From: Anaerosoma tenue
GTDB taxonomy: Bacteria > Actinomycetota > Coriobacteriia > Anaerosomatales > Anaerosomataceae
Length of the DNA: 64,000 nucleotides
Assembly: GCF_023161965.1 (NCBI RefSeq)
Contig: NZ_JALNTY010000001.1
Coordinates: 912,501-976,500, forward strand
Direction of reading: 5' to 3'
Below are positions 36,873-62,199 of this stretch, in pieces (within the stretch, counting starts at the first letter, position 1; each line of letters opens with the position of its first letter). Below the pieces are notes generated by a model. That model ran no database searches. It saw nothing but the letters and a program-made list of their open reading frames with translations, and was not told the DNA's origin. The position numbers were made by a program, and so were the translations under genes.

Positions 36873-39800
36873 CTACGACGTACCACTCCCCGCGCTCCGC
36901 GTGCGGATCGCCCATCCGGCGAGCCCCACGCCGGCAAGCACCCCGGCCACCGCGAGCATCCACCACGGGAAGCCGGACTCGTCGTCTGCAGGCTCGTCGG
37001 CCTCGGGCTCGTCGGCGGCAGCCGCCTCATCGGCGTCTTCGGCTTCGGCATCGCCATCATCGGTATCCTCGGCGGGCGCGTCTGTCTCGGTCGCAGTATC
37101 GCTCTGGGCGTCCTCATCGGCGGTCGCGCCAGAATCCTGCTCGTCGGGCGACGTCCCGCCGCTGCTGGTCACCGGAGGGCTGTAGGTGCTCGTGGGCGGC
37201 TGCTCATCCGCAACCTCGGCCACTGTGATCGTGATCGTTTCGGAGTCCGACGCAGTGCCGTCCGAGACGGTCACGGTGATGCTGTACGTACCCGGCCCCT
37301 GCGCCTCGGTGGGCGTCCAGGTGAAGACGCCCGTGGCGCTGTCGATCGCCGCCCCCGCGGGCGCACCCGCGCCGAGCGAGTAGGTGAGCGTGTTCGCGGG
37401 CACGTCCGCATCGGTCGCGCTCGCTGTGAACGTGAGCTCGTCGAGCTCATCCACGCTCTTATCGCCGATCGCGCCGAGCACGGGCGCCGTGTTGACCTCG
37501 GCCACGGTGACCGTGATGGTCTCGGAGTCGGTCAGCTCCCCGTCTGAGGCGACGACCGTGAAGGCGTGGGCGCCATTCTGGGCCTCAGTGGGCGTCCAGG
37601 AGAACACGCCGGTCGTGCTGTCGATCGAAGCTCCGGCAGGCGCACCGGCGCCGAGCGAGTAGGCGAGCGTGTTCGCGGGCAGGTCGGCGTCGGTGGCGCT
37701 GGCCGTGAACGTCAGCTCGGCGAGCTCATCGACCGACTTGTCGCCGATGGCGTCGAGCACGGGCGCGGCGTTGACCTCGGCCACGGTGACCGTGATGGTC
37801 TCGGAGTCGGACGCGGTGCCGTCCGAGACGGTCACGGTGATGTCGTAGCTCCCCGGCCCCTGCGCCTCGGTGGGCGTCCAGGTGAAGACGCCGGTCGTGC
37901 TGTCGATCGAAGCTCCCGAAGGCGCACCCGCGCCGAGCGAGTAGGTCAGCGTGTTCGCGGGCAGGTCGGCATCGGTGGCGCTGGCCGTGAACGTGAGCTC
38001 GGACAGCTCGTCGACCGTCTTATCGCCGATGGCGCCAAGCACGGGCGGGGCGTTGACCTCGGCCACGGTGACCGTGATCGTTTCGGAGTCCACGCCGCCC
38101 TTGCCGTCGGTGACGACCACGGTGATGTCGTAGCTGCCCGACCCCTGCGCCTCGGTGGGCGTCCATGAGAACACGCCGGTCGTGCTGTCGATCGAAGCTC
38201 CCGCGGGAGCACCGGCGGCGAGCGAGTAGGTCAGCGTGTTCGCGGGCAGATCGGCGTCTGTGGCGGTCGCCGTGAACGTGAGCTCGGCGAGCTCGTCGGC
38301 CGTCTTATCGCCGATGGCGCCAAGCACGGGCGCGGCGTTGACCTCGGCTACTGTGATCGTGATGGTCTCGAACGCAGACGAGACGCCGTCGGTGACGATA
38401 ACGGTGACCGGGTAGCTGCCCGGGCCGTGCGCCTCGCTGGGCGTCCAGGTGAAGACACCGTCGGGCGTCATCGCTGCTCCCGCCGGAGCGGGGATGGCGA
38501 GCCTGTAGGTGAGCGCCTGCGCCGGGATGTCGGCGTCGGTGGCGCTCGCTGTGAACGTGAGCTCAGAAAGCTCGTTCACGCTCTTGTCGCCGATCGCACC
38601 GAGCACGGGCGCGCTGTTCACCTCGGCCACCGTGACGGTGATCGCCTCGGAGTCCACGCCGCCCTTGCCGTCGGAGACGGAAACGGTGACCGGATAGCTT
38701 CCCGGCCCCTGGGCCTCGGTGGGCGTCCAGGTGAACACACCGGTGGCGCTGTCGATCGCCGCTCCCACTGGCGCGCTCGCGTCGAGCGAGTAGGCGAGCG
38801 TATCGGCAGGCACGTCCGCATCGGTGGCGGTCGCCGTGAACGTGAGCTCGGAAAGCTCATCGACCGACTTGTCGCCGATCGGGCCGAGCGCCGGCGGCGC
38901 CGCCAGAAGCGTGGGAGCCGTGAAACGGCTAGGAGCATCCGCACCGAATCCGAGATGGTCCTCGAGGTTGTAGCCCCACAACCAGGCGCTCCCGTCGGTC
39001 TTGAGAGCGCCGGAGTCGTTCACCCCTGCTACCGGGAACGCCCAGTCCGTCCCGATGCCGACCTGCGTGGGCACCAAGCGGTTGTTCAGATCGCCGAGAC
39101 CGAGATTGCCGGCGTAGTTGTTTCCCCAAGCCCACAGCGTGCCATCCGTGCGCACAGCGATCACGTGCCGGGAACCGCCTTCCACTCCCGCCCAGTCGCT
39201 GTCCGTGTCCACCTGTGTAGGCGAGGTGCGATTTGCCGTGTCGCCTTGGCCGAGCTGCCCGGCGGTGTTGTCACCCCAGGCCCAGAGCGTCCCGTCGCTT
39301 CGGATGCCCATGGCGAAACTCTCTCCACTCTGGACCGTGACCCAGTCGGTGTCCGTGCCCACCTGCGTGGGAGAGGTGCGATTGGCTGTGTCACCGAGAC
39401 CCAGCTGCCCGTAGTAGTTGTAGCCCCACGCCCACAACGCACCACCGGTCTTGATGGCGTAGCTCGAATAGCCATTGCCAGCCGCCTGCGCCCAGTCGGT
39501 GTCGGTGCCCACCTGCGTGGGCGAGGTGCGATTGACCGTGTCGCCTTGGCCTAGCTGTCCGAAGGGGTTGTAGCCCCACACCCACAACGTCCCGTCAGCC
39601 TTGATCGCGAGCGAATGATGCCGTCCCACAGTGACTGACACCCAGTCGGTGTCCGTGCCCACCTGCGTGGGAGAGGTGCGATTGGCTGTGTCACCGAGAC
39701 CCAGCTGCCCATAGTTGTTGTAGCCCCACGCCCAAAGCGTGCCATCGTCTTTCAGTGCGAGCGAATGTCCCACGCCGGCATAGCCGCCCGCGGCGACCGA

Positions 39801-40124
39801 GACCCAGTCGGTATCGGTGCCGGCCTGCACAGGCACCAAGCGGTCGGCTGTGTCGCCGAGGCCAAGCTGTCCGTTGTTGTTGTAGCCCCACACCCAGAGC
39901 GTGCCGTCGCTCCGGATCTGCAGCTTGTGTCCCCCGGAACCCATCGCGAGACTCTGCCCCCCGGGCGCTGCGTGCGCCAACATGGTCGGCGCGACCGCGA
40001 GAGCCACTGCCAGGAGCGTGAGGATGGCGAGGCGCATGAACCCCGCCGGGTACAGGGATCGCGCGGAGCGTTCCCCCTGGAAGCCTGTTCGAGTCCTCGT
40101 ACCAGTCAGCGAGCCAGCAGCCAT
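36873..40124 (-). CDS. Large surface protein with RCC1 repeats and Ig-like repeats
   Basis: About 1083 residues, exported. After a short basic leader, RLAILTLLAVALAVAPTMLA is the signal sequence. Seven RCC1-type repeats of about 50 residues follow (DGTLWAWGYNNYGQLGLGDT pattern), enough for one beta-propeller. Then come six Ig/cadherin-like repeats of about 94 residues starting GAIGDKSVDEL and ending ITVTVAEVN. A Thr/Asp/Glu-rich stalk leads to a C-terminal helix (FPWWMLAVAGVLAGVGLAGW) and basic tail, so it stays anchored in the membrane. No LPXTG motif. ATG 40124 has GAAGGGAAG before it. Probable role: adhesion or extracellular ligand binding. Confidence 0.88.
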   Translation of the reverse strand: MAAGSLTGTRTRTGFQGERSARSLYPAGFMRLAILTLLAVALAVAPTMLAHAAPGGQSLAMGSGGHKLQIRSDGTLWVWGYNNNGQLGLGDTADRLVPVQAGTDTDWVSVAAGGYAGVGHSLALKDDGTLWAWGYNNYGQLGLGDTANRTSPTQVGTDTDWVSVTVGRHHSLAIKADGTLWVWGYNPFGQLGQGDTVNRTSPTQVGTDTDWAQAAGNGYSSYAIKTGGALWAWGYNYYGQLGLGDTANRTSPTQVGTDTDWVTVQSGESFAMGIRSDGTLWAWGDNTAGQLGQGDTANRTSPTQVDTDSDWAGVEGGSRHVIAVRTDGTLWAWGNNYAGNLGLGDLNNRLVPTQVGIGTDWAFPVAGVNDSGALKTDGSAWLWGYNLEDHLGFGADAPSRFTAPTLLAAPPALGPIGDKSVDELSELTFTATATDADVPADTLAYSLDASAPVGAAIDSATGVFTWTPTEAQGPGSYPVTVSVSDGKGGVDSEAITVTVAEVNSAPVLGAIGDKSVNELSELTFTASATDADIPAQALTYRLAIPAPAGAAMTPDGVFTWTPSEAHGPGSYPVTVIVTDGVSSAFETITITVAEVNAAPVLGAIGDKTADELAELTFTATATDADLPANTLTYSLAAGAPAGASIDSTTGVFSWTPTEAQGSGSYDITVVVTDGKGGVDSETITVTVAEVNAPPVLGAIGDKTVDELSELTFTASATDADLPANTLTYSLGAGAPSGASIDSTTGVFTWTPTEAQGPGSYDITVTVSDGTASDSETITVTVAEVNAAPVLDAIGDKSVDELAELTFTASATDADLPANTLAYSLGAGAPAGASIDSTTGVFSWTPTEAQNGAHAFTVVASDGELTDSETITVTVAEVNTAPVLGAIGDKSVDELDELTFTASATDADVPANTLTYSLGAGAPAGAAIDSATGVFTWTPTEAQGPGTYSITVTVSDGTASDSETITITVAEVADEQPPTSTYSPPVTSSGGTSPDEQDSGATADEDAQSDTATETDAPAEDTDDGDAEAEDADEAAAADEPEADEPADDESGFPWWMLAVAGVLAGVGLAGWAIRTRSAGSGTS
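37205..38895. repeat. Six near-identical ~282-base repeats inside the surface-protein gene
   Basis: The Ig-like repeat units are highly similar at DNA level, with long exact stretches shared between units 3, 4, 5 and 6. This favours recombination and copy-number change between strains. Assembly collapse is possible, so the true number of units should be treated with care. Confidence 0.75.
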
Positions 40125-41886: not shown

Positions 41887-43590
41887 CTACCGCACCACGC
41901 CGTCCACGGTGGCCTTCACGGCGCAGCTCACCGCGCTGTCGCCGCCGAGGTAGCGAAGCGACCGCACCTCGGCGCAGTCCGCCGCCAGCCGCGCACGCAC
42001 CGCATCGGCAAGCTTCGTGCCCTGCGTGAGCAGCAGCACCGAGCGGCTGCGGCCCTGCAGCACGCCGCCCGCCAACGCGTCGGGGAAGTCGGTGCCCACG
42101 GCGATCGCGGCGCCCTCCCACTGGAGCCCCTCGGCCACCGCCCTGTCGGCGATTTTCGCGGCGGTCTCATAGCGGTCGGCGCCGGCGATACGCTCCACAG
42201 CAGCGCCACCGAGCCACGCCTCGAGCGCGCTCTCCACCGGCGCGCCCACAACACCGGTGCCGCCCAGCACCACCGCCTGCGACACGCGCATCTCCTCCAT
42301 CGCGCGCGCCGTGGAGTCCGCGAGGCCGTCCGGAGGCGTGAGCACGAGCAGCCATCCCTCGGCCGCCGAGAGCGGCGATGCGGCAAGCGCATCCGGGAAG
42401 CTCGCGCCGGTGGCCACGAAGCACTGCCCGCCGTACCCGTCGCCGAGCGCCGCACGCGCGGCGCGCGCCACGAACACGGAGGTCTCGTACCGGTCCGCCC
42501 CGCCGATGCGGGTCACCGAACCCGGGCCCAGCTCGGCCACAAGCGCCTGCTCCACCGCGGTCGACACGGCTCCGGCGCCGCCGAGGATCACCACGCTGCG
42601 CGCCCGCAGTCGGCGGATCTCGGCCAGCGTCTCTCCCGGAAGCGAAGCAGTGCGGGTGAGCAGGATAGGCGCGTCCTTGGCGCCCGCGAGCGCGGCCCCG
42701 CCGAGCGCGTCGGGCCAGTTCTCGCCGGTCACCAGCACCACTGTCTCCGCCGAGTCGAACGCCGCCGCGCTCATCCTGGCCGCGGTCTCGTAGCGGTTGG
42801 AGCCTGCGATGGTGGTGAAGGCCACGGACGGATCCGCGGCGTCGAAGTCGATCGTGAAGGTCACGCTCCTTGTGGCGGTGTTGCCCGCGCGGTCGGTCGC
42901 CGTGATCGTGAGCGTGTGCTCGCCCTCGGCGGAGATCGTGGAGCACGACGCGAACGCGCTGCCATCGAGGGTGGCGTTCACGGCGGCGAGCGAGGCGTCG
43001 GAGGCGGTGAATGCAGGCGTTATCGGACCCGCGTAGGTGGCGCCGTCGGCCACGCACGCAAGCGTGATCACGGGCGGCGTGGTGTCGGCGGGCAGGTCGT
43101 GGAAGTGGATGAAGCCGCTCACGGACGACGCGGTGATCGTGCGCCTCGTGTAGCCGCGGTCCACGCTGTAGTTGTAGTCCTCAACGACGATCGTGCCGTT
43201 GGCGTTCACGGCCTCCACGTACGCCACATGGCCGCTGGAACTCACGGTTCCGGCCGCCCACCAGGCTATCGCCCCCACCTCGGGAGTGCGGTCCACGGTG
43301 ATGCCGAGGTTTCGCGCGTTATTCGCCCAGTTCCCGGCATCGCCCCACCGGCCGCCGTCCATGAAGTTGGTGAAGCTGCCCTCGCCCGCGTTCTGGTTCA
43401 TCCGCCACGCCACGAACGACGTGCAGTAGCCCTTGTAGAAGCCCCACGGATCAGTACCTGTCTGGCCCTTGAACGGGTAGTCGTCAACGGCCATCGCGGC
43501 GGACGGCGCCATGATGAGCGCGGCTGTGATGAGGAGCGCTATGCCGAGGCGTGCCCGGGGCGAACGAGACAGTCCTGGAATGCCGATCAC
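41887..43590 (-). CDS. CHAP-domain wall protein with three CWB2 repeats
   Basis: About 567 residues, secreted. After a signal sequence (LGIALLITAALIMAPSAAMA) lies a CHAP amidase/peptidase domain: catalytic Cys in FYKGYCTSFVAWRM and His in SSGHVAYVEAV, with WANNARNLGI between. An Ig-like domain follows, then three cell-wall-binding repeat 2 units, each starting around RIAGADRYETA and containing a (D/E)NWPDALGGAALAG-like segment. CWB2 units anchor proteins non-covalently to wall polymers in Gram-positive bacteria. The GTG at 43590 is my choice; the frame is open to 43668. Likely a wall hydrolase or remodelling enzyme. Confidence 0.85.
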   Translation of the reverse strand: MIGIPGLSRSPRARLGIALLITAALIMAPSAAMAVDDYPFKGQTGTDPWGFYKGYCTSFVAWRMNQNAGEGSFTNFMDGGRWGDAGNWANNARNLGITVDRTPEVGAIAWWAAGTVSSSGHVAYVEAVNANGTIVVEDYNYSVDRGYTRRTITASSVSGFIHFHDLPADTTPPVITLACVADGATYAGPITPAFTASDASLAAVNATLDGSAFASCSTISAEGEHTLTITATDRAGNTATRSVTFTIDFDAADPSVAFTTIAGSNRYETAARMSAAAFDSAETVVLVTGENWPDALGGAALAGAKDAPILLTRTASLPGETLAEIRRLRARSVVILGGAGAVSTAVEQALVAELGPGSVTRIGGADRYETSVFVARAARAALGDGYGGQCFVATGASFPDALAASPLSAAEGWLLVLTPPDGLADSTARAMEEMRVSQAVVLGGTGVVGAPVESALEAWLGGAAVERIAGADRYETAAKIADRAVAEGLQWEGAAIAVGTDFPDALAGGVLQGRSRSVLLLTQGTKLADAVRARLAADCAEVRSLRYLGGDSAVSCAVKATVDGVVR

Positions 43591-44767: not shown

Positions 44768-45292
44768 CTACTGCTCGAGGAAGTCCAGGATCGCCTCCTG
44801 CTCCTCGCTGGTGAGTTCCAGTCCGTGCGACTCCTGCATGCGGCTCACGACATCGAGCCACGACGTGCCGTTCTCTGCCTGGTACACCTTCTCCAGGGAG
44901 TGGCAGTCGGTGCACTTCTCGGCGATCAGGGTCTCGGCCTCCGAGGGTTCGCGGGATGCGAGGTACTGCACCACGGCGTTCGCCTCATCATCGGTAAGCA
45001 CCACCTGATGGCTCTCCTCCATCCGCTGGACCACCATGTCCCAGTCCAGCCCTTCTTGCGGACCGCCCACGAACGCGGCGGTGAAGGCCATCTCGCTGTG
45101 GCACTCGAGGCAGACGCTGTCCGCCACTTGTTCGCCCTCCGCTACGACATCGTCTTCAGACGTGGCGGGCGACTCCGTTGCGTCCTGGCCGCCGTCAGCA
45201 GGCTCCTCGGCAGGGGCGGAACACCCGCCCATCGCAAGCAGTCCCACGATCAGCACGGCCACCAGGACCACGATCATGCTGCGTGTCTTCAT
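44768..45292 (-). CDS. Dihaem cytochrome c lipoprotein
   Basis: A 174-residue lipoprotein (lipobox AMGGC) with two haem c motifs, CLECH and CTDCH. The two halves are similar: each has the haem motif, then about 25 residues, then RMEESH or RMQESH, which supplies a candidate Met ligand, then a helix ending VVQYL or ILDFL. This is the quinohaemoprotein-type dihaem domain pattern. It should sit outside the membrane and pass electrons. It is the last gene of AOR operon 1, 17 bases after the accessory gene; copy 2 of the operon lacks it. ATG 45292 has AGAGGAACC upstream. Confidence 0.88.
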   Translation of the reverse strand: MKTRSMIVVLVAVLIVGLLAMGGCSAPAEEPADGGQDATESPATSEDDVVAEGEQVADSVCLECHSEMAFTAAFVGGPQEGLDWDMVVQRMEESHQVVLTDDEANAVVQYLASREPSEAETLIAEKCTDCHSLEKVYQAENGTSWLDVVSRMQESHGLELTSEEQEAILDFLEQ

Positions 45293-45309
45293 CACATCGG
45301 TTCCTCTCA

Positions 45310-45642
45310 TCAGCTGCCGACCTGGGCAAGGCGCTCACCGATCAGCGCGCGGGCGGCCTGCATGCACTCGTAGCCTGTGGAACAGGAGCCGTACGCGGCC
45401 TTCACCGCCTCGGCCAGTTCGCTGTCTCCCAGGGGTCCGGCGAGCCACTCCACCAGCCCGTCCGGGTCCAGGCACGCGTCGTCGGCGCCGAGGAACCCGT
45501 GCACCTGCGCCAGGCTGAAGAGCCTGCCGCCCACGCGGCTCCGTCCGTTGATGCGGAAGGCCGCCACGTAGTCACCCGGCCTGACCGGACGCATCACGCG
45601 CTCGGCCACCTCCGGAGTAGGAGTGTTGAGGGTACCCATCAT
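45310..45642 (-). CDS. AOR-linked small protein, copy 1
   Basis: A 110-residue soluble protein of no family I know. It starts MMGTLNTPTPEVAERVMRPV, has FLGADDACLDPDGLVEWLAG then PLGDSELAEAVKAAY, and ends with a helix. It is homologous to the protein at 56359-56739, which has the same position behind the second AOR gene: PEAAERLV and ALADWVSGNLGDPGLAAAI align. The start overlaps the AOR stop (ATGA), so it is made together with it. A maturation, chaperone or cofactor-delivery role for the tungsten enzyme is my inference. Confidence 0.75.
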   Translation of the reverse strand: MMGTLNTPTPEVAERVMRPVRPGDYVAAFRINGRSRVGGRLFSLAQVHGFLGADDACLDPDGLVEWLAGPLGDSELAEAVKAAYGSCSTGYECMQAARALIGERLAQVGS

Positions 45643-47714
45643 TCACCACCCAGCTTTCCGGCCGCTTCCAGCGTGTCGGCCACGTGGCCGAGGTCCACGC
45701 CTTCGAGCGTCTCGCGTGTAGGCCATCCTGTTGATACGTCCCAGCCCTCGAGCTCGTAGAACATCGTCTTGACGTCCTCCATGCGTTCGCGATCGATGAC
45801 CCTGCCGGTCACGAGACGGTAGTCCCACGTCCCGTCCTCGAAGGTCGGCATCCAGTACGGCCCGTACAGGTGTCCGCCGTACGGGACCTCGTAGAGGTAC
45901 TCCGAGTACTTGACCATGTCGCGGTGACGGCCCTGGATCGTCCAGATGGCGTTGTCCAGGTTCCAGATACGCCGCCCAAGCTCCATGCCGTCGGTGAAGC
46001 TCATGCCGTCGCCGGTCACGGCGTTCCAGAAGAGCGGTTCGCCCTCAGGGGTGAAGCCGCCGCGATCCTCGGTCTTGGGGCTGTAGAAGTCCGCGAACCG
46101 GTAGTCGCAGTAGAGCGCCGATTCCTTCCAGAAGCGCGTGTAGTGACGGTGCCACGCGGTGAGCTTGACCTGACCCTCGGAGTACATGCCGTCCTCGGAG
46201 AAGTCGAGCATCATCGGGTCGGGGTCGAACGGAAGCATCCGCTCCGCGAACTTGGTCACGAACTCCTCGGCTTCCATCCAGCTGGGGATGCCGTACCACT
46301 TGGCGATCGACGGCTTCCAGAACAGGTTGTTGAAGTCGTGCTCGTTGATGTCGCGGTCGCCGAGGATGCTGCCCCAGCCCCAGTACGCCTCAGCGCGAGG
46401 GTCGTAGCCGTGCTCGGGCAGACCCCAGTACGAGTAGTGGAGCACGCCGCTGGCGGTGTCCTCCTCCAGGCGTCCCCAGTGCTCGGCGGCGCGCCACATG
46501 CCCTCGGCCAGGATGTCGCCCGCCCCTTCGCGGTCGGCCACCATCCTCTGGTAGGTCTCGATGAACTCGCGGCTGCCGTACGTGTCCCACGGCAGGTCGA
46601 TATCCACCTGCTTGCCTACGCCGGCGATGCCCTCCTGGTAGAGGTGGTAGAGCCAGTTGAGACCGTGGTCGATCTCGTAGACGTTGATGCCCAGGCGCTG
46701 CACCATCTCCGCCGAGTACCGAACGGTCGGCGTGGTCTGACCCTGGTTGTACATCATGTCCGCGAAGAAGTAGAAGTACGTCTCCTCGCAGCTCGACTCG
46801 TTGCCGAGGCCGTCGCTGAAGCGCGCGCGGCACGAGGAGATGCAGCTCTGGCAGGCCTGTGGGCGCGACCCCACATCGGTGGGCATCGGGTACATGACCG
46901 CCGGCGACGGATTGCCCGAGAAGCGCGCCCAGCCAAAGCCGTCCTTGGGCTCGTCCACATTCACGCCAAGATCCTCACGCGCCGAGAAGCGCGCGTTAAG
47001 CAGCGCCGCCGCGTCGGCCACGTCGATGTCCTTGGAGCCGATCACGCTGATGGCCTTCAGGTTCTTGGCGCCCCACACACCGCCGAAACCGCCCTGCGCG
47101 GCCGCGTTGCCAGCGTCGTGGATGAGAGCGCCCACGCGCGACTTCTTCTCGCCCGAGGGGCCGATCGTGATCACGGCCGACTGCAGCGCGGCGCGCTCGC
47201 CCGACTTCGTGCCGATCTCACGCCAGCCGTCCGAGTTGGCCACCTGGAGGTTCCAGATGCGCTCCTGCGTGTCGTAGGTGTCGAGACCCCAGAGGCCGTC
47301 GGTCTCCGCGTCGCGCAGGACCACGCGGTCGTTCTCGATCTCGATCCACGTCGGCTTGGAGGCCGCACCTTCGAGCACGATGCCGTCCCAGCCGGCGAAC
47401 TTCATCATCGTGGCGAACCGGCCGCCCATGTTCGAGCGGGTGAACCATTCCGGCGTGGACTGCACGCCGATGCCCTGGATCTCGAGCCGCGAAGCCGACG
47501 GCGCCAGCGTGCCCGCAAGCGGCGAACTCATGATCGTGATCACATTGGCCGGGTCGAAGCCCGAGATCGTCTTGTCCGCGCAGAGGTCCCAGAAGATGGC
47601 CGAGCCCATACCGTGGCCGCCACCCCACTCCCGGTACTGCTCGGTCTCGATCTCCGAGACCGTGCCCGCGGTGAGATCCACCCGCAGGATCTTCCCAGCG
47701 TATCCATTACCCAT
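45639..47714 (-). CDS. Aldehyde:ferredoxin oxidoreductase family protein, catalytic subunit, copy 1
   Basis: A 691-residue tungsten/molybdopterin enzyme of the AOR family, longer than the usual 600-620. The [4Fe-4S] cysteines are C288, C291 and C295 in QACQSCISSCRARF and a fourth near C536 in SALYCDYRF. The N-terminal domain (YAGKILRVDLTAGTVSEIET, then WGGGHGMGSAIFWDL) matches the pterin-binding fold. AOR enzymes oxidise aldehydes or reduce acids with low-potential carriers; the true substrate here is unknown. No signal peptide. Third gene of a cytochrome b-ferredoxin-AOR-accessory-cytochrome c operon. Confidence 0.9.
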   Translation of the reverse strand: MGNGYAGKILRVDLTAGTVSEIETEQYREWGGGHGMGSAIFWDLCADKTISGFDPANVITIMSSPLAGTLAPSASRLEIQGIGVQSTPEWFTRSNMGGRFATMMKFAGWDGIVLEGAASKPTWIEIENDRVVLRDAETDGLWGLDTYDTQERIWNLQVANSDGWREIGTKSGERAALQSAVITIGPSGEKKSRVGALIHDAGNAAAQGGFGGVWGAKNLKAISVIGSKDIDVADAAALLNARFSAREDLGVNVDEPKDGFGWARFSGNPSPAVMYPMPTDVGSRPQACQSCISSCRARFSDGLGNESSCEETYFYFFADMMYNQGQTTPTVRYSAEMVQRLGINVYEIDHGLNWLYHLYQEGIAGVGKQVDIDLPWDTYGSREFIETYQRMVADREGAGDILAEGMWRAAEHWGRLEEDTASGVLHYSYWGLPEHGYDPRAEAYWGWGSILGDRDINEHDFNNLFWKPSIAKWYGIPSWMEAEEFVTKFAERMLPFDPDPMMLDFSEDGMYSEGQVKLTAWHRHYTRFWKESALYCDYRFADFYSPKTEDRGGFTPEGEPLFWNAVTGDGMSFTDGMELGRRIWNLDNAIWTIQGRHRDMVKYSEYLYEVPYGGHLYGPYWMPTFEDGTWDYRLVTGRVIDRERMEDVKTMFYELEGWDVSTGWPTRETLEGVDLGHVADTLEAAGKLGGE

Positions 47715-47753
47715 AGCGATAAGCGCCTTTCTCTCGTAAGAGTGCGATCGGGC

Positions 47754-48458
47754 CTAGCCCTCGATGTCGGCCACGTAGCCGAACGAGGCCCAGTTCTCCG
47801 TGCGGAGGTTCGGCGAGTAGCCGTCCTCTGTCTGCTCAGGAAGGTCAGTGGTGAACTTGATGGCCCGCATCGGGCACACGCTCTCGCACGCGCGGCGACC
47901 ATCGATGCCGCCCTCGTCGTCCATGTACGGCGTGTCGAGGCACAGGTCGCACTTCTGAGAAGCGTGACCCTCCTCGCTCCACTGCACTGCGGAGACCGCG
48001 CGCGGGCATGCCGCCACGCAGCGCAGGCATCCGATGCACCGCAACTGATCCACGGTACGCACGCCCGTCTCGGGGTCCACGTGCATCGCGCCGGTGGGAC
48101 ACGCCTGAACGCACTCGTCGCACTGCCAGCACTGCACCGGATCGATGTCGTAGGGGAACGCCTTGAACGGGTTCTGTGTGATCTGGATACGGGAAAGCGA
48201 GTGGTTCGCCGCGCCATGGTGTGCGATCGCGCAGGCGGCCATGCACGTGGAGCAGCCGGAGCACTTCTTCTGGTCCACGAGCAGGAACCCGCCCGAGACC
48301 GGATAGGCGATCACCTCATCGGGAAGCAGGAACACCTGGGCGACCGCGCCACCGATGACGCCGAGCGCGCCAAGGGCGCCGATACCGCCCATGAACTGCC
48401 GGCGCGATAGACCTCTGGCGCCGTCTTCAGCCGGATTGACGTCTTTGATGTCCGACAT
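47754..48458 (-). CDS. Tat-signal ferredoxin subunit with four [4Fe-4S] clusters, copy 1
   Basis: A 234-residue electron-transfer protein of the DmsB/PhsB type. The N-terminus has a twin-arginine signal, LSRRQFMGGIGALGALGVIG. Sixteen cysteines follow in four groups: CSGCSTCMAAC, CWQCDECVQAC, CIGCLRCVAAC, and CDLC with CESVC. It would link the AOR subunit to cytochrome b. The Tat signal means the subunit is folded before export; because AOR has no signal, it may travel with this subunit. ATG 48458 has GGAGG upstream, two bases after the cytochrome b stop. Confidence 0.9.
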   Translation of the reverse strand: MSDIKDVNPAEDGARGLSRRQFMGGIGALGALGVIGGAVAQVFLLPDEVIAYPVSGGFLLVDQKKCSGCSTCMAACAIAHHGAANHSLSRIQITQNPFKAFPYDIDPVQCWQCDECVQACPTGAMHVDPETGVRTVDQLRCIGCLRCVAACPRAVSAVQWSEEGHASQKCDLCLDTPYMDDEGGIDGRRACESVCPMRAIKFTTDLPEQTEDGYSPNLRTENWASFGYVADIEG

Positions 48459-48460
48459 GG

Positions 48461-49321
48461 CTACGCCTCCTTTCCGGTGGTCGTGCTCTCGGAGGCGCTC
48501 AGGCGCTGATACCAGCCGGCGTGCTCCTTCTCCGCGTACTCGCGGGGGACGTAGCCGGTGAACATCGAGCGCAGGACAGGCCATGACATCGGCAGCACGC
48601 TCGAGAAGAACACGTGCGCCACGAAGAACAGCAGCATCGCGATCGTGGAGACGCCGTGGACGGGGGTCGCCGCCGACACGAGCCAGGCGGGGAGATCCAT
48701 CAGGTGGGCGAGCACCTTCACGATCCCGCTCAGGATCACACCCACGCTGGCGAGGATGGCCAGGATGTACGCCATCTTCTCGCTCTCGAAGTACTTGTCC
48801 TCGGGCGGCATGGTGAACTTCTTGATGCCGAGGAGCTTGCCGTAGTGCTGCACCGTGAACGAGAACGCGTTGCCGGTGGGCAGGTGCTCCTTGAAGCGAT
48901 AGGCCGAGACGATCGTGTTGGCCGCGTAGTAGAACGTGCCGAACAGGAACACCACCACGCCCACGAAGTGCAGGTTCATCATGAGCCACACGCCGTCGGT
49001 GTCGCGCACGAGCCGGGGCACGAACAGGAAGCCGAGCCCCACGCCGGTGGCGAGCAGCAGGGCCGTGCCGAGGCCGTGGGCCCAGTGCTCCAGGCGAGCC
49101 GCTCCGTCGTGGCGGAGCACCCTGTCGCCCTCGATGCGCGGATCCTGCCTGCGAGTGAGCCCCGCGGCAAGCACGCCAAGGAACGGTGCGAGGAAGACCA
49201 GCCACCAGGCTGAATCGAACAACAGGCCACCGCCCTCGCTGCGGGTAGCCTGCACGGCCCACAGACTGCCGAGCCCGAGGGCCAGCGTCAGGCCGAGCAC
49301 GGGTAGGACGCCCTTCTTCAT
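48461..49321 (-). CDS. Cytochrome b subunit (FdnI/formate dehydrogenase gamma-like), copy 1
   Basis: A 286-residue membrane protein with about six helices, resembling dihaem cytochrome b subunits of formate dehydrogenase. Helices include WWLVFLAPFLGVLAAGL, LGTALLLATGVGLGFLFVP, LMMNLHFVGVVVFLFGTFYY and STIAMLLFFVAHVFFSSVLP. Candidate haem-ligating histidines are in EHWAHGLG, NLHFVG, PVHGVS and VAHVFF. It would exchange electrons with quinones. The first gene of AOR operon 1; ATG 49321 follows GAAGGAGAGAGT. Divergent from the Fic-like regulator, 202 bases away. Confidence 0.88.
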   Translation of the reverse strand: MKKGVLPVLGLTLALGLGSLWAVQATRSEGGGLLFDSAWWLVFLAPFLGVLAAGLTRRQDPRIEGDRVLRHDGAARLEHWAHGLGTALLLATGVGLGFLFVPRLVRDTDGVWLMMNLHFVGVVVFLFGTFYYAANTIVSAYRFKEHLPTGNAFSFTVQHYGKLLGIKKFTMPPEDKYFESEKMAYILAILASVGVILSGIVKVLAHLMDLPAWLVSAATPVHGVSTIAMLLFFVAHVFFSSVLPMSWPVLRSMFTGYVPREYAEKEHAGWYQRLSASESTTTGKEA

Positions 49322-49388
49322 ACTCTCTCCTTCGTTTGCCGGAACGAACCCGTGTACAAGAAGCGGCGCAGAGCTGTATGCTGTCAAT

Positions 49389-49413
49389 ATTCGATAACTG
49401 ATAGTTTTAGAAT
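49389..49413. promoter_or_regulatory. Imperfect dyad between cytochrome b and Fic-like regulator
   Basis: ATTCGATAACT, GAT, AGTTTTAGAAT: the two arms match at 9 of 11 positions around a 3-base centre. The surrounding sequence is AT-rich for this genome, 68 bases above the cytochrome b start. A candidate operator or promoter core for AOR operon 1. Confidence 0.45.
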
Positions 49414-49470: not shown

Positions 49471-49503
49471 GAGGCTTTCTATCAGTCATTGATAGAAAGC
49501 CTC
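49471..49503. promoter_or_regulatory. Perfect 14-base inverted repeat before the Fic-like regulator gene
   Basis: GAGGCTTTCTATCA, five bases GTCAT, TGATAGAAAGCCTC, ending 20 bases before the ATG at 49524. It could be a DNA operator for the winged-helix protein or an mRNA hairpin that limits its translation; the ribosome site GGAAGGG lies just after it. Confidence 0.7.
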
Positions 49504-56358: not shown

Positions 56359-56739
56359 CTACTCGAGCTCCGCTCCCGCCGCATCGGCTGTGCCGTCCGC
56401 CTCCGCAAGCACCACCGTGGCCTCCTCGAACCTGGCAGCCATCGCCACACGCGCGGGACCGGCCACTTTGAAGGCCGGTACACCCTCGCACGCTTCGTGG
56501 ATAGCCGCCGCAAGGCCTGGGTCGCCAAGGTTGCCGGAGACCCAGTCGGCCAGCGCGTCAACGGAGAACACGGGCTCGAGCACCTGCGATACCTTGAGGA
56601 ACTCCTCGGCCGAACAGACCGGCACCTGCTCGAATCCGCCGTGCTTGCCGATCACACTCACGGTGAGCCGCTTGTCGTACGGCTGCCGTGCAACGAGCCG
56701 CTCGGCGGCCTCGGGCGTCATCGCAGCCAGTTCCGCCAT
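56359..56739 (-). CDS. AOR-linked small protein, copy 2
   Basis: A 126-residue protein homologous to the one at 45310-45642. It starts AELAAMTPEAAERLVARQPY, has a strand pair (RLTVSVIGKHGGFEQVPVC), then VLEPVFSVDALADWVSGNLG followed by DPGLAAAIHEACEG, and ends in an Ala/Glu-rich tail not found in copy 1. The gene begins two bases after the AOR stop. The conserved position in both operons is the main clue to a role with the tungsten enzyme. No metal-binding or catalytic motif is evident. Confidence 0.72.
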   Translation of the reverse strand: MAELAAMTPEAAERLVARQPYDKRLTVSVIGKHGGFEQVPVCSAEEFLKVSQVLEPVFSVDALADWVSGNLGDPGLAAAIHEACEGVPAFKVAGPARVAMAARFEEATVVLAEADGTADAAGAELE

Positions 56740-56741
56740 CG

Positions 56742-58817
56742 CTAGCCTCCCAGCTTCCCGGCCGACTCGAGCGTGTCGGCGACCTCCGGGAGTCCGACCT
56801 CTTCGAGAGTCTCCCGCGTGGGCCAGCCTGAGGCCAGATCCCAGCCTTCGAGCGTGTAGAAGCGGTCCTTCCACTGCTCGAAGCCGTCGATGTCGAGCGC
56901 GCGGCCGAGCGCGTTGATGTACGTCCACTCCCCGTCCACCTTGCCGGCGAGCGGGTAGAACGGGCCTACGAGGCTCGTCTCGAGCGGGACCTGGTACATG
57001 TACGGCGCAAGCTTCACGATGTCGCGGTGGCGACCCTGCAAGGCCCAGATGGCGTTGTCGAGGTTCCATATCCTGCGGCCGAGTTCGATACCCTCGGCAT
57101 AGGTCATGTCGTCACCGGTCACCGCGTTCCAGAAGAGCGGCTCACCATCGCCGGTCATACCCACATCGTCGGCGGCGGCGAAGTTGGCCAGGTCGGGCCA
57201 GCGGAAGTCGCAGTACAGCGCGCTCTGCTTCCAGAAGCGTGTGTAGTGCCGCTGCCACGAGACCAGCTTGGCCATCGACTCCGAGTAGATGTTGCCGGTG
57301 CTGAAGTCCACCATGTCCATGTCGCCCTCGTAGGGGACCATCTTGGCGGTGACGATCTCGGCATATCGCTCGGCGGAGATCGGCACGTCGAGCCCGGCGC
57401 CCATGTGGTTGATCACGGCCCAGAAGTGCGCGTTCAGACCATGCTCGTTCATATCGCGCTCGCCCATGATCGAGCCGTAGCCCCACTCCACCTCCGTGCG
57501 CGGATCATACCCATGGTTGGCGTAGCCCCAGTACGGGAAGTCGAGGATGCCCGTCTGCCAGTCTTCTTCCAGCCGGCCCCACTTCTCAGCTGCGCGCACG
57601 AACCCTTCGGCTATGTCCTCGCCGATGTCCTCGCGCATCGCGACCTTGGTGATGAAGTCCACCGCGAATGAGGTCTCGCCGATGGTAGAGAAGTCGAGTT
57701 TCGTGTCGATCTCGAGACCGGGGCCGAGGATTCCCATCTGGTTGAGCGCGTACAGGTAGCTGAGACCCCGGGCGAGTTCGTAGGAGTTGATGCCATACCG
57801 CTGCACGAGATCGGTGGCGATCACCGACGCGTCGGTGTGCGCGCCGTGCTTGAGCGCATCGAACGTGGTGTACACGCCGGTCTCCTGGCACGACGACTCG
57901 TTGGCCAGCCCGTCGCTCCAGCGCGGACGGCACCCGGCGATGCAGCCCTGGCACGCTTGCGGGCCCATCGTCACCTCGGTCTTGCGCTTGAAGAACAGCG
58001 TGGGTGACGGAGCCCTGCCGAGCGACGGTCCGTTTGGCGGGGCCGGCTGGCCCGTCTCGGCACCGAACTCGTCCTTGGCAAGCATGCGGGCGTTGAACAG
58101 GGCGATCGGATCGGCGATCTCCACCGAACCGGTCCCCACCACGCTGATCGCCTTGAGATTCTTCGAGCCGAAGACCGCGCCGAAACCGCCCTGGCCAGCG
58201 CCGTTGCCAGCGTCGTGGATGAGGCAACCGAGGCTTGAGAGGTTCTCGCCAGCGGGACCGATCGTGACGACCGCCGACTTCTGCGTGGTGCGGCCCGCAT
58301 CGCGCGCGGCACCCACGTTGTCCCAGCCGTGGGCCTCGTCGTCCTTCTGCCCCCAGATGAGCTTCTGCGTCTCCTGAGTGTCCTTGCCCCACAGGTCAGC
58401 CGCATCGCGGAACTCCACGGAGTCGTTCACGATGTCGATCCACACGGGAGCCTCGGACTTGCCGGTGATCACGATGCCGTCCCAGCCCGCGTACTTGAGC
58501 TGCCCGCCGAACCGCCCGCCGAAGTTGGAGCGGGTGAACCAGCGGATGGGATACCCCGCCGCGCCGATGCCCTGGACCTCCACACGTCCCGAAGCCGACG
58601 GGACCATCGTCCCGGAGAGTGGCGACGTCATCATGGTGACCACGTTCTTCGGGTCGTCCCACGCGACGTTCTTGTCTTCCACGAGATCCCAGAAGATCGC
58701 GGACCCCATGCCGTGACCGCCGCCCCACTGCTTGTACTGCCCGGTGTCGATCACCGAGTGCTCTCGAGCGGTGAGATCCAGCATGAGGATCTTGCCGCTG
58801 TAACCGTCCTTCGCCAT
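56742..58817 (-). CDS. Aldehyde:ferredoxin oxidoreductase family protein, catalytic subunit, copy 2
   Basis: A 691-residue AOR-family subunit clearly paralogous to 45639-47714 and the same length. Cluster cysteines are C289, C292 and C296 in QACQGCIAGCRPRW plus the later SALYCDFRW. The pterin-binding N-terminus reads YSGKILMLDLTAREHSVIDT, then WGGGHGMGSAIFWDL. Much of the C-terminal half is conserved with copy 1 (LFWNAVTGD, RRIWNLDNAIW, QGRHRD), while loops near 120-180 and 240-280 differ, which may change substrate. No signal peptide. The gene is 53 bases downstream of its ferredoxin gene. Confidence 0.9.
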   Translation of the reverse strand: MAKDGYSGKILMLDLTAREHSVIDTGQYKQWGGGHGMGSAIFWDLVEDKNVAWDDPKNVVTMMTSPLSGTMVPSASGRVEVQGIGAAGYPIRWFTRSNFGGRFGGQLKYAGWDGIVITGKSEAPVWIDIVNDSVEFRDAADLWGKDTQETQKLIWGQKDDEAHGWDNVGAARDAGRTTQKSAVVTIGPAGENLSSLGCLIHDAGNGAGQGGFGAVFGSKNLKAISVVGTGSVEIADPIALFNARMLAKDEFGAETGQPAPPNGPSLGRAPSPTLFFKRKTEVTMGPQACQGCIAGCRPRWSDGLANESSCQETGVYTTFDALKHGAHTDASVIATDLVQRYGINSYELARGLSYLYALNQMGILGPGLEIDTKLDFSTIGETSFAVDFITKVAMREDIGEDIAEGFVRAAEKWGRLEEDWQTGILDFPYWGYANHGYDPRTEVEWGYGSIMGERDMNEHGLNAHFWAVINHMGAGLDVPISAERYAEIVTAKMVPYEGDMDMVDFSTGNIYSESMAKLVSWQRHYTRFWKQSALYCDFRWPDLANFAAADDVGMTGDGEPLFWNAVTGDDMTYAEGIELGRRIWNLDNAIWALQGRHRDIVKLAPYMYQVPLETSLVGPFYPLAGKVDGEWTYINALGRALDIDGFEQWKDRFYTLEGWDLASGWPTRETLEEVGLPEVADTLESAGKLGG

Positions 58818-58870
58818 TGCATTACCTCCCGGTAGTCACTGCGTCATGCAGCGCGTGTTCGCGTGGTCGT

Positions 58871-59614
58871 CTAGTGCGAGGCCGTGGCGGCCGCGGGGTT
58901 CTCCGTGCCGGCGTCGTCGATCGGGTAGCCGATCTTCGCCCACCCGGCGTCGCGCAGATTCACCACGTAGCCCTCGTCCGACTGCAGCGGAATCTCCTTC
59001 GTGAAGCTGATGGCGCCCGTGGGGCATACCTGCTCGCACGCACGCTTGCCGTCGGGTCCGCCCTGCTCGTCCCAGTAGGGGGTGTCCTTGCACAGGTCGC
59101 ACTTCTGCGCGTGCTTGTCCTCGGTGTTCCAGATCACTCGGCTCGTATCCATCGGGCATGCGTTCACGCACTCCTGGCAGCCGATGCACTTGGCCACGTC
59201 CACCGTGCGCACGCCTGTCTCGGTATCCACGTGCATCGCCCCGGTGGGGCACGCCTCCACGCACGCCGGGTAGGGGCACTGGCGGCACTGGATGATCGCC
59301 TTGTCGTTGGGGAACGACTCGAACGGGTCCTGCACCACCTGGATGCGGCTGAGCGACAGGCTCTGCACGCCGTGATGCGTGAGCGAGCACGCCATCATGC
59401 AGGTGCTGCAACCCTGGCACTTCATGGGATCCACCAGCAGGTAGCCGTCCGAGGCCGGTATGGCGATCACCTCGTCGGGCAGGAGGAAGCCCTTCACCAC
59501 GAGGCCGCCGAGGACCAGGCCGAAGCCCGCCCCGCCGACGCCGGTGATGAACTCGCGGCGTGAGACGCCCGTGCTCTCGGCGGCAACGCCGGTCGTCGTG
59601 TCCTTGTCCACCAT
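58871..59614 (-). CDS. Tat-signal ferredoxin subunit with four [4Fe-4S] clusters, copy 2
   Basis: A 247-residue paralogue of 47754-48458. Twin-arginine signal VSRREFITGVGGAGFGLVLG, then the same FLLPDEVIAIPASDGYLLVD junction and four cysteine groups: CQGCSTCMMAC, CRQCPYPACVEAC (two extra residues here), CIGCQECVNAC, and CDLC with CEQVC. Role: electron wire between AOR copy 2 and cytochrome b copy 2, probably outside the cytoplasm. Its ATG shares one base with the cytochrome b stop (TGATG), so the two are coupled. Confidence 0.9.
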   Translation of the reverse strand: MVDKDTTTGVAAESTGVSRREFITGVGGAGFGLVLGGLVVKGFLLPDEVIAIPASDGYLLVDPMKCQGCSTCMMACSLTHHGVQSLSLSRIQVVQDPFESFPNDKAIIQCRQCPYPACVEACPTGAMHVDTETGVRTVDVAKCIGCQECVNACPMDTSRVIWNTEDKHAQKCDLCKDTPYWDEQGGPDGKRACEQVCPTGAISFTKEIPLQSDEGYVVNLRDAGWAKIGYPIDDAGTENPAAATASH

Positions 59615-60537
59615 CAGTCGTTTCCTTTCGCTCTCGTCGGCCCTGGGTGCGCCGGTGTGTCGTGAGATGCCTGGTGCCCTCCCGCTGCGACCACCGCGAC
59701 GGATGGCTCGTCGCCGAGGGAGGCCAGCCAGCCGGCGTGTTCGTGGCGTGCGTACTCCAACGGCACGTAGCCGGTGAACATCGAGCGCAGCACCGGCCAG
59801 CTCATCGGGAGGATCGCGGCGAAGAACACGTGCGCGAGGAAGAACGCCAGCATCGCGATCGTGGCGATGTCGTGCGCCGGCGTTGCGACGGCCATGAGCC
59901 AGCCCGGTACATCGACCGCGTGAGCCGCGACCTTGAGGAACCCGGTGACGATGATGACCGCCGTGGATACGAGCGCGAGGAGGTACGCCATCTTCTCGCT
60001 CTCGAAGTACTTGCGCTCGGGTGGGAACGCGAGCTTCTTGAACCCGAGCAGCAGGCCATAGTGGCGGCGCGTGAAATCGACCGCGTCGCGCGTGGGCAGG
60101 TGCTCGCGGAAACGATGCGTCGCGAGCAGCGTGTTGGCCCCGTAGTAGAAGGTGCCGAACAGGAACACCAGCACCGCGACGAAGTGGATGTTCATCGCCG
60201 CCCGCACCGGCGCCCCGCTTCCAAGCAGCGTGGGTACGAACAGGAAGCCCAGAGCGATGCCGCTTGCCAGCAGCGCCGCCGTCCCCACGCCATGGGTCCA
60301 GTGCTCGACGATCGCCGCGCCATCGTGCCTGAGCACGCGGTCGCCTTCGATCACCGGGTCCCTGCGTCTCGTGAGCCCGGCGGCCAGCACACCCGCGAAC
60401 GGTGCCAGCCACACGAGCCATGTCGCCGAGTCGAACAGGAGTCCTGCCCCCTCGGCCGATGCCGAACGCACCGCGTAGGCGATGCCGACGATGAACGCCA
60501 GCACTGCGAGTGCTCCGGCGATGGCACGTCGTGCCAT
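59614..60537 (-). CDS. Cytochrome b subunit (FdnI-like), copy 2
   Basis: A 307-residue paralogue of 48461-49321 with the same six-helix plan: N-terminal helix ALAVLAFIVGIAYAVRSASA, WLVWLAPFAGVLAAGL, AALLASGIALGFLFVPTL, NIHFVAVLVFLFGTFYYGAN and ATIAMLAFFLAHVFFAAILP. Histidines in EHWTHGVG, NIHFVA, PAHDIA and LAHVFF are kept, supporting haem b binding. It carries a longer C-terminal tail than copy 1. ATG 60537 follows GGAAGGGG by 7 bases. First gene of AOR operon 2 and divergent from the second Fic-like regulator. Confidence 0.88.
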   Translation of the reverse strand: MARRAIAGALAVLAFIVGIAYAVRSASAEGAGLLFDSATWLVWLAPFAGVLAAGLTRRRDPVIEGDRVLRHDGAAIVEHWTHGVGTAALLASGIALGFLFVPTLLGSGAPVRAAMNIHFVAVLVFLFGTFYYGANTLLATHRFREHLPTRDAVDFTRRHYGLLLGFKKLAFPPERKYFESEKMAYLLALVSTAVIIVTGFLKVAAHAVDVPGWLMAVATPAHDIATIAMLAFFLAHVFFAAILPMSWPVLRSMFTGYVPLEYARHEHAGWLASLGDEPSVAVVAAGGHQASHDTPAHPGPTRAKGND

Positions 60538-60921
60538 ACGCACACCCCTTCCCTTGTTCCATTGACGGACTGGCCGGATCCGTGAAGCCACCCCAGCAAA
60601 GCAGGGTCTGAACTACTAGTCAAGGTCATACTAGTATTTAAAAGGCCCCCCACCCCGATTCCGGGCCTGGAAACGGCAATCTGCAGCTACCGTTGTCTTC
60701 ACCAAGGTGTACAGATTCTAGGTTCAAACAGCAGAATCCAACCTTCAAACCCAGCGCTCGCTTCCATGGCAGGAACCTTTTCCCCTAGAATGTCGATTAT
60801 GGTAGTTGGCGAGTACACCAGCGCACCTCATGCCGCAGAGCGCGCGTCGAGGAATAGCCAGCGTGATACGCTGCGACCATCGTCTCAGGGGACACTGATC
60901 GAGAAGGGGCTCCAGCGCTCG
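60538..60921. promoter_or_regulatory. Divergent control region of AOR operon 2 and Fic-like gene 2
   Basis: A 384-base stretch with no gene I trust. It is AT-rich relative to the genome. TACTAGT (60614-60620) and ACTAGTA (60630-60636) form an inverted repeat with a 9-base spacer, followed by TTTAAAA, a likely operator over or next to the AOR promoter. A frame open from 60766 reads into the regulator, but its first 52 codons look non-coding and alignment with copy 1 supports the ATG at 60922. Confidence 0.5.
60614..60636. promoter_or_regulatory. TACTAGT/ACTAGTA inverted repeat
   Basis: Two 7-base perfect arms, 9 bases apart, 77 bases above the cytochrome b copy 2 start. Each arm also contains the self-complementary ACTAGT. 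It fits a dimeric DNA-binding protein such as the divergent winged-helix regulator. Confidence 0.55.
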
Positions 60922-62199
60922 ATGACTGAGGACATCGACAGAGATATCGCGATGCGGGTCATCGAGGCTTTCGAGTCGGGACGCCTCGACTACCTGTTCG
61001 CGGAGACGAACATCCAGTACTTCGACCGTGCCGACTTCGAGGGCATGCGGTTTGGCACCGGACTACCACGCGACTCGATCTGGCGGCTCCTCGCCTCGGT
61101 GCGCAGGGCAACCGGTCTCGTGGTCTTCGAGAGCGCCTGGGGCGACGCTCAGGTACGTGTCTCACTCACGGCACAGCTCCTCAAGGCACTCTCTGAGATC
61201 GACACCTGGCCGCGACGCAGTCTGTTCGGCCGCAGTGGACTCCCCGCAGACGAGGAGGGGATCGTCAGGGATCGGCTGCTTGTTGAGGAGGCCACCCTGA
61301 TCGGGCTGTTCAAGACCGGCGCCGATCCCACTGCCAGCGCAGCGTTGGAGGAGGTGCGCTCATCGGTGATCGCTTCGGTCTATGACGGGATACCGCCCGC
61401 CGACGAGGCATCATCGATCGCCACACGCTTCTACGAGATCTCGCGCGAATTGCCACACCTGCTCAACGACCCGCCAACACCGGATGACATCCGCGGCATC
61501 CATGCACGACTCCGAGGCGACGCGCCTGACGCCGGCCGCTTCCGAACCGCAGCGGGCGACCCGGACGGCCTTCGTTCCGCACCCGGTGTTGCGCCCGAGC
61601 GGATCGAGCGTGAGATGGATATGCTGTGCGCGTATGCCGGCAGCACAGACGTTCCATTCATCCACCCGCTCATCAAGAGCATCGCTATCGCCTGGTGGAT
61701 CCGATACGTGCAGCCGTTCGACGAGTACAACTACCTGGTAGGCCGCCTCGTGTCTCTCGGCTGGATCGTGCATCAGGGCTACACGCTGCTGGGCATCGCT
61801 GACCCACACTACCGCTTCAAGTCGGCAACGGTCGCTTCGGGCGACCAGACCGCGAAGTTCATCCGCCATCTTGAGGTCATCAGAGACGCGGCGAGTCTCG
61901 GTGAGGAGCGCCTCGAGGAGCGTGTCGAACGCTATGCGATCGTGATGGGTCGTTTCGGTCATCTCGACATCAACCACAGGCAGGCGTTCATCCTCGACCG
62001 TGCCACGCAGCGCCCGGACACCGAGTTCACGATCAAGCATCATGCGCGCACGCGACAGCTGTCCTACGAAACGGCGCGCCAGGACCTCCTGCGCTTGGTG
62101 GAGATGGGATACCTGGAGCAGAGCAAGCGCGGCCGCGCCTTCGTGTTCACGCTCGCCCACAGCATGGTGGACCAGCTCGGCCGGGACGCACGGGGCTGA
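60922..62199 (+). CDS. Fic-fold/winged-helix regulator with dead active site, copy 2
   Basis: A 425-residue paralogue of 49524-50828. The Fic core near residues 246-276 reads DVPFIHPLIKSIAIAWWIRY, then VQPFDEYNYLVGRL: the catalytic His is Gln and the GNGR loop is NYLV, so it cannot transfer AMP in the normal way. The C-terminal winged helix has INHRQAFILDRATQ and LSYETARQDLLRLVEMGYLE. Overall identity to copy 1 is modest, but domain order and length agree. It is divergent from AOR operon 2. ATG 60922 has GAAGGGG about 12 bases upstream and aligns with the copy 1 start. Probable operon-specific regulator. Confidence 0.73.
   Translation: MTEDIDRDIAMRVIEAFESGRLDYLFAETNIQYFDRADFEGMRFGTGLPRDSIWRLLASVRRATGLVVFESAWGDAQVRVSLTAQLLKALSEIDTWPRRSLFGRSGLPADEEGIVRDRLLVEEATLIGLFKTGADPTASAALEEVRSSVIASVYDGIPPADEASSIATRFYEISRELPHLLNDPPTPDDIRGIHARLRGDAPDAGRFRTAAGDPDGLRSAPGVAPERIEREMDMLCAYAGSTDVPFIHPLIKSIAIAWWIRYVQPFDEYNYLVGRLVSLGWIVHQGYTLLGIADPHYRFKSATVASGDQTAKFIRHLEVIRDAASLGEERLEERVERYAIVMGRFGHLDINHRQAFILDRATQRPDTEFTIKHHARTRQLSYETARQDLLRLVEMGYLEQSKRGRAFVFTLAHSMVDQLGRDARG

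Follow-up and report, generated by a model that had tools for sequence, protein, structure and literature searches.

Operon B of Anaerosoma tenue (Table 1) appears, from its sequence, to be an intact, selectively kept and membrane-bound module of the class V WOR (YdhV) type, one of a set in which a single quinone-linked chassis would serve different substrates under dedicated control. We put the probability of this explanation as a whole at roughly two in three; counted against it is the identity of YdhV to the catalytic subunit of copy B, which is only 28%. A preliminary description of the window (the whole stretch of 64,000 nucleotides that was analyzed) had presented operon B as a second, diverged copy of the nearby operon A, with both retained for two substrates or for opposite reaction directions. 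The same window also holds a 1054-residue protein in which RCC1 repeats precede tandem Ig/cadherin-like domains, its DNA repeats being about 80% identical (36873-40037), and a CHAP-domain protein that carries three CWB2 cell-wall-binding domains (41887-43590).

Table 1. Positions of the features discussed; plain numbers refer to the window, those with a prefix to other loci and contigs of the genome.
Feature	Position	Strand	Remarks
Operon B (cytochrome b, FeS, AOR, small)	56359-60537	-	all frames open
Copy B cytochrome b, 307 aa	59614..60537	-	PF01292, FdnI/b561-like; Pfam E 5.9e-16
Copy B FeS subunit, 247 aa	58871..59614	-	WorS / NrfC-DmsB type; SRREF, 16 Cys
Copy B catalytic subunit, 691 aa	56742..58817	-	AFOR_N + AFOR_C; Pfam, homologue alignment, BamB alignment
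Copy B small subunit, 126 aa	56359..56739	-	fast-evolving; without Pfam family
Copy B divergent Fic-like regulator with C-terminal winged helix (predicted)	60922..62199	+	Pfam, alignment, AF2, Foldseek
Copy B predicted operator TACTAG-N11-CTAGTA	60614..60636	-	overlaps -35 TTGACT
Operon A (same order plus dihaem cytochrome c)	44768-49321	-	about 7.0 kb from operon B
Copy A cytochrome b, 286 aa	48461..49321	-	
Copy A FeS subunit, 234 aa	47754..48458	-	SRRQF, four [4Fe-4S] motifs
Copy A catalytic subunit, 691 aa	45639..47714	-	lone long branch; nearest relative 56% identical
Copy A small subunit, 110 aa	45310..45642	-	
Copy A dihaem cytochrome c lipoprotein	44768..45310	-	two CxxCH
Copy A divergent Fic-like regulator (predicted), 431 aa	49533..50828	+	
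Copy A predicted operator CTATCAGTTATCGAATATTGACA	49382..49404	-	TATCAA-N3-TTGATA variant adjoining -35
Perfect palindrome CTTTCTATCA-N5-TGATAGAAAG	49475..49499		copy A divergent promoter region; half-sites TATCA/TGATA
Orphan dihaem cytochrome c lipoprotein	C2:219053-219595 (L168, G000:C2:217000-236000, 2054-2596)		site 2753-2775
Distant AOR with PEYE/PELE	L009 7074-8930		
Distant AOR with PEYE/PELE	L013 4119-5906		
Distant AOR with PEYE/PELE	L013 14565-16499		

Six paralogues and the relationship of operons A and B

The two operons share the core gene order of cytochrome b, FeS subunit, AOR and small subunit, lie about 7.0 kb apart and encode catalytic subunits of exactly 691 residues, all of which agrees with the preliminary description. 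The claim that they also share the same overlaps does not hold: the cytochrome b and FeS genes, 2 nt apart in A, share 1 nt in B, and the AOR and small-subunit genes share 4 nt in A but lie 2 nt apart in B. Nor is "second copy" an apt term. A search of the genome (2.1 Mb on six contigs) with AOR B recovered six full-length AORs of this kind, namely B itself, A (52% identical to B), C (53%), D (50%), E (47%) and F (47%); identities among the six catalytic subunits run from 45 to 53%, and A and B are no nearer to each other than other pairs are. Three further, more distant AORs with the classical PEYE/PELE motif are present in the same genome, one of them near MoaD/ThiS-like genes and another adjoining an alcohol-dehydrogenase-like gene.

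Phylogenetic analysis was based on a large tree of 98 AORs and a careful tree of 38 rows. Copy B and five orthologues form one clade (support 100/100), with members in at least five further genomes of Coriobacteriia; the closest orthologue, 97% identical, is that of the congener Coriobacteriia bacterium Zod_maxbin.0135_3 (locus L014, genome G002), followed by one in an Anaerosomatales MAG (83%) and three more at 71-72%. AORs of this kind occur in 17 of the 69 genomes of the order Anaerosomatales. Copy A is a lone long branch whose nearest relative is 56% identical, with none above 54% among 396 genomes of the class; separate orthologues in other genomes exist for each of C, D, E and F. The 38-row tree separates A from B, and an enforced A+B grouping is disfavored (p-AU 0.017), a rejection which is only modest because the branch of A is long. 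These trees point to separate histories for the six, A and B probably being two of six old paralogues and not a duplicate pair.

Two similar operons 7 kb apart could also be taken for a recent redundant duplication, or for an operon beside its decaying copy, and we consider this extremely improbable: the 52% identity, the separate B clade and the tree test argue against recency, and the open frames and, for B, the low dN/dS against decay. Between the AOR of B and its congener orthologue dN is 0.019 and dS 0.476; strong purifying selection acts on the copy B AOR. The start codon of the copy B cytochrome b gene is the same as in that orthologue's operon. Both modules are old and intact, as the preliminary description had supposed. 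It was also correct in placing a dihaem cytochrome in A and none in B, but this absence is a stable trait of the whole B clade, which rules it out as a lesion. Loci of the B clade have kept the divergent Fic-like gene and the series cytochrome b, FeS, AOR and small subunit (locus L017 ends within the AOR), with neither a dihaem cytochrome adjoining nor a radical-SAM gene downstream. B12-binding radical SAM proteins are encoded downstream of many of the other operons (for example, L011 6954-8240 and 12707-13987), as well as in loci from Bacillota and Methanohalarchaeum, and it is possible that they are enzymes of cofactor or substrate modification.

Active site, electron-transfer subunits and substrate

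The catalytic subunit of copy B matches the Pfam families AFOR_N (E 4e-52) and AFOR_C (E 1.5e-31), and its candidate FeS ligands are conserved, with C289, C292 and C296 present in 99 of 99 homologues and C536 in 98. When a profile of the six paralogues was aligned with BamB (PDB 4z3w), the invariant Cys310 of B fell on BamB Cys322; E. coli YdhV also has Cys in this column, as do 98 of the 99 rows. This residue (Cys322 in BamB, Cys336 in YdhV) ligates the metal and no other AOR/WOR member has it; the BamB and YdhV clades are also without the second-shell residues used for aldehyde oxidation (2025 review, PMC12096430). The PEYE active-site motif (Glu313) is replaced by SSCQE in B, which sets it apart from the aldehyde:ferredoxin oxidoreductases sensu stricto, whose metal has no ligand from the protein. 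The label "AOR" of the preliminary description is misleading in this respect, the active site being apparently of the Cys-ligated BamB/YdhV type, and aldehyde oxidation of the ordinary kind by copy B is unlikely. Among NCBIfam models YdhV (PRK09849) comes nearest, at 214 bits against a cut-off of 868, and B is not a YdhV equivalog.

Class V WORs are described, in the main text of a recent survey, as YdhV-like enzymes with a Tat-type FeS subunit, membrane partners and no known activity, one partly purified member having oxidized none of the 46 aldehydes tried (PMC13328260, 2026). The operons studied here encode a WorS with a Tat motif (SRREF, SRRQF) and a membrane-associated cytochrome b (PF01292). 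Because all six catalytic subunits carry the metal-ligand Cys of BamB and YdhV, we regard them as probable YdhV-like, class V WORs and not aldehyde oxidases, an assignment made by features; class V corresponds to clade 41 of the published 92-clade tree. Clade 41, as the survey's main text presents it, resembles operon B in combining WorL with a Tat-signal WorS and a membrane subunit, occurs in Coriobacteria among others and has no known substrate; that text reports diverse subunit sets, mentions no Fic proteins and does not describe a six-fold multiplication with homogenized cytochrome b (Putumbaka et al., 2026; PMC13328260). The E. coli operon YdhYVWXUT also has FeS and cytochrome b partners for an enzyme of the same family with the same Cys (YdhV, a bis-Mo-MPT enzyme with no known substrate), but differs in having two FeS proteins as well as two other genes (YdhW, YdhT), and no Fic-like gene annotated nearby. 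BamB of class II benzoyl-CoA reductase shares the ligand Cys but is part of the large Bam complex and not of a Tat-type cytochrome b module.

In the proposed mechanism, the catalytic subunit would cross the membrane together with the Tat FeS subunit and work on the outer face, going by the motif of the FeS subunit alone, with the FeS chain and the haem b groups carrying electrons either to menaquinone or from it. The FeS subunit of B has a twin-arginine motif (SRREF) and 16 Cys in four [4Fe-4S] motifs, and His 71, 79, 118, 222 and 236 of cytochrome b, candidate haem-b ligands, are invariant in 37 of 37 homologues. The genome has genes for TatC and for MenA, the sole gene of the classical menaquinone route that was looked for; MqnA of the futalosine route was looked for in the genome and not found. 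Quinones went undetected in cultured members of the order (PMC9686372), which calls for caution. The fourth protein of the operon may be either a subunit or a chaperone. Small subunits are about 18-35% identical between paralogues and evolve faster than the AOR, and the copy B protein, modeled by AF2 at pLDDT 95, gave no PDB fold match (best E 0.55) and no HMM or profile match to YdhW.

Residue 311, beside the metal-ligating Cys310, is Q in B, E in A, V in C and D, F in E and Y in F; it is V or L in a seventh clade, and elsewhere is fixed within each clade and mostly different between clades. Residue 522, another position that differs by clade, is Q only in B. That residue 311 is clade-specific speaks for a common electron-transfer chassis serving different substrates, and different substrates are favored for A and B. 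It is unlikely that the two carry out the same reaction and are kept only for different expression or amount; their common subunit plan, equal length of 691 residues and differing operators and regulators would suit such an arrangement, but they are only 52% identical, they differ at the clade-specific residues 311 and 522, the residues typical of B are retained by its orthologues in at least five other genomes, and the small subunits of A and B are only about 20% alike.

The cytochrome b of A and that of B are 63% alike, and elsewhere this gene has apparently been exchanged between operons. A stretch of about 1 kb comprising the promoter, cytochrome b and the start of the FeS gene is 99-100% identical in C and D (2 mismatches in 840 nt), beyond which identity drops to about 70%; in the Yes46-06 MAG, the operon of the B orthologue and a different operon of the same genome have nearly identical cytochromes b. 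Contig C2 stops at both ends at one and the same point of cytochrome b, and E and F start just within the FeS gene, as expected of an unresolved identical cytochrome b repeat; the promoters and truncated cytochrome b genes at the C2 ends are most probably those of E and F. The same break point is seen in about twelve operons of this genome and its relatives. Contig ends lying in cytochrome b/FeS repeats were seen on C1 (L010), C2 (L176, L177) and C4 (L012), and short-read assemblies may undercount copies of these operons. The pattern points to homogenization of cytochrome b by gene conversion, between C and D directly and between E and F on the evidence of the contig ends.

This bears on the alternative that A and B run opposite ways, one oxidizing a donor and the other reducing an acceptor, which we consider quite improbable. 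A dihaem cytochrome c within the operon is found only in A and could mark a different electron route; set against this are the likeness of the two cytochromes b and their conversion in other operons, and since cytochrome b is homogenized while pocket residues differ, opposite directions find no support. Moreover, the C and D operons are without a dihaem cytochrome of their own, but an orphan dihaem cytochrome c gene carries the promoter motif found at both, so that its absence from an operon is not a sign of a different route. Of the two options offered by the preliminary description, two substrates is the one favored by the differences at residue 311; for opposite directions, with the same type of cytochrome b in both operons, there is no evidence.

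Fic-like neighbors and predicted operators

What is new here is the presence of five catalytically dead Fic-fold winged-helix proteins beside the operons. Exactly five are encoded in the genome, one each at A, B and D and one at either end of contig C2, and none of this kind lies away from these operons. The protein at B scores 27 bits against the Pfam Fic model (cut-off 24), and in place of the HPFx[DE]GN[GK]R motif of active Fic AMP transferases it reads QPFDEYNYLVGR; the catalytic His and the GNGR are gone from all aligned WOR-linked Fic-like proteins. SoFic of Shewanella oneidensis consists of a Fic fold followed by a C-terminal winged helix. An AF2 model of regulator B (pLDDT 84) supports the same combination, its Foldseek matches including SoFic (3eqx) and Mycobacterium marinum Fic (7cb8, E 1.4e-8), with weaker ones (E about 0.01) to the MarR-type DNA binders AbfR and HsmR. 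Regulator B differs from these two Fic proteins in having lost HPFx[DE]GNGR and in sitting opposite a respiratory operon, apparently as its regulator.

A Fic-like gene adjoins cytochrome b in most Coriobacteriia loci with enough flanking sequence, mostly head-to-head and, in Eggerthellaceae loci, in tandem. Among the 69 genomes of the order, the regulator is present in 16 of the 17 with these AORs versus 10 of the 52 without (Fisher p 4e-8). In one genome without a class V WOR, a Fic-like gene is divergent to genes for a formate-dehydrogenase-like molybdopterin oxidoreductase and FeS and cytochrome-b-like proteins (L183 126-6463); in another locus (L178) it lies beside a flavoprotein gene, with no AOR of this type. 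A search of open-licence papers for Fic-type regulators near these enzymes returned nothing relevant.

Two types of predicted operator were recognized. The type 2 motif, TACTAG-N11-CTAGTA, occurs without mismatch at B (chance expectation in the window 0.03), where it is the single site within three mismatches in the 2.1-Mb genome, and it lies upstream of cytochrome b within three mismatches in four of the five B orthologues; the remaining one, the closest orthologue, is a marginal match with five mismatches in the left arm and an intact right arm. The type 1 motif, TATCAA-N3-TTGATA just 5' of TTGACA, has three sites in the genome, at the promoters of C, D and the orphan dihaem cytochrome c, and the reversed control pattern has none; the orphan cytochrome with its type 1 site recurs in a congener (L053, site 5833). 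TATCCA and TATCGA variants are found at the two probable E and F promoters, and the perfect palindrome at copy A arose in none of 100 shuffles. Nearly all motif matches in 1.74 Mb of loci precede cytochrome b or a dihaem cytochrome. The motifs were derived partly from these same promoters, and their independent support comes from uniqueness in the genome, the orphan cytochrome and the extra loci.

Regulators whose winged helix has ETARQ(D) pair with type 2 sites, and ATARxDL is mostly accompanied by type 1 sites. We infer that the Fic-like proteins bind these predicted operators. A and B apparently have separate regulators, as first described, each operon having its own divergent neighbor gene and a different predicted operator. 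It is rather unlikely that the Fic-like neighbors are bystanders and that another transcription factor uses the palindromes: members of the family are indeed found in 10 genomes of the order that lack these AORs, but operator type tracks regulator type, most flanked Coriobacteriia loci have the head-to-head layout, and five regulators stand beside six operons, two of which have one common operator. With the Fic-like protein as regulator, it would sense a substrate-related ligand, and operon B alone would come under the control of regulator B, through binding to the palindrome that overlaps the -35 element. The odds are even, in our estimation, that the dead Fic-fold winged-helix proteins are a previously undescribed family of substrate-sensing regulators in Coriobacteriia, each with a distinct operator and each controlling one or two of the multiplied W/Mo enzymes with their gene-converted anchor and diversified heads.

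Implications for class V WORs

The six paralogues would combine a homogenized common membrane anchor with divergent catalytic pockets, and this combination makes it most likely that A and B act on different substrates and are separately switched. Class V WORs make up about one tenth of the WOR family and are without a known substrate. The operator-regulator pairs offer a direct route to it, as reporters built from a promoter and its own Fic-like regulator could be screened against candidate compounds. One membrane chassis with six different catalytic heads is also a natural experiment, and comparison of the heads can reveal the residues which determine the substrate.
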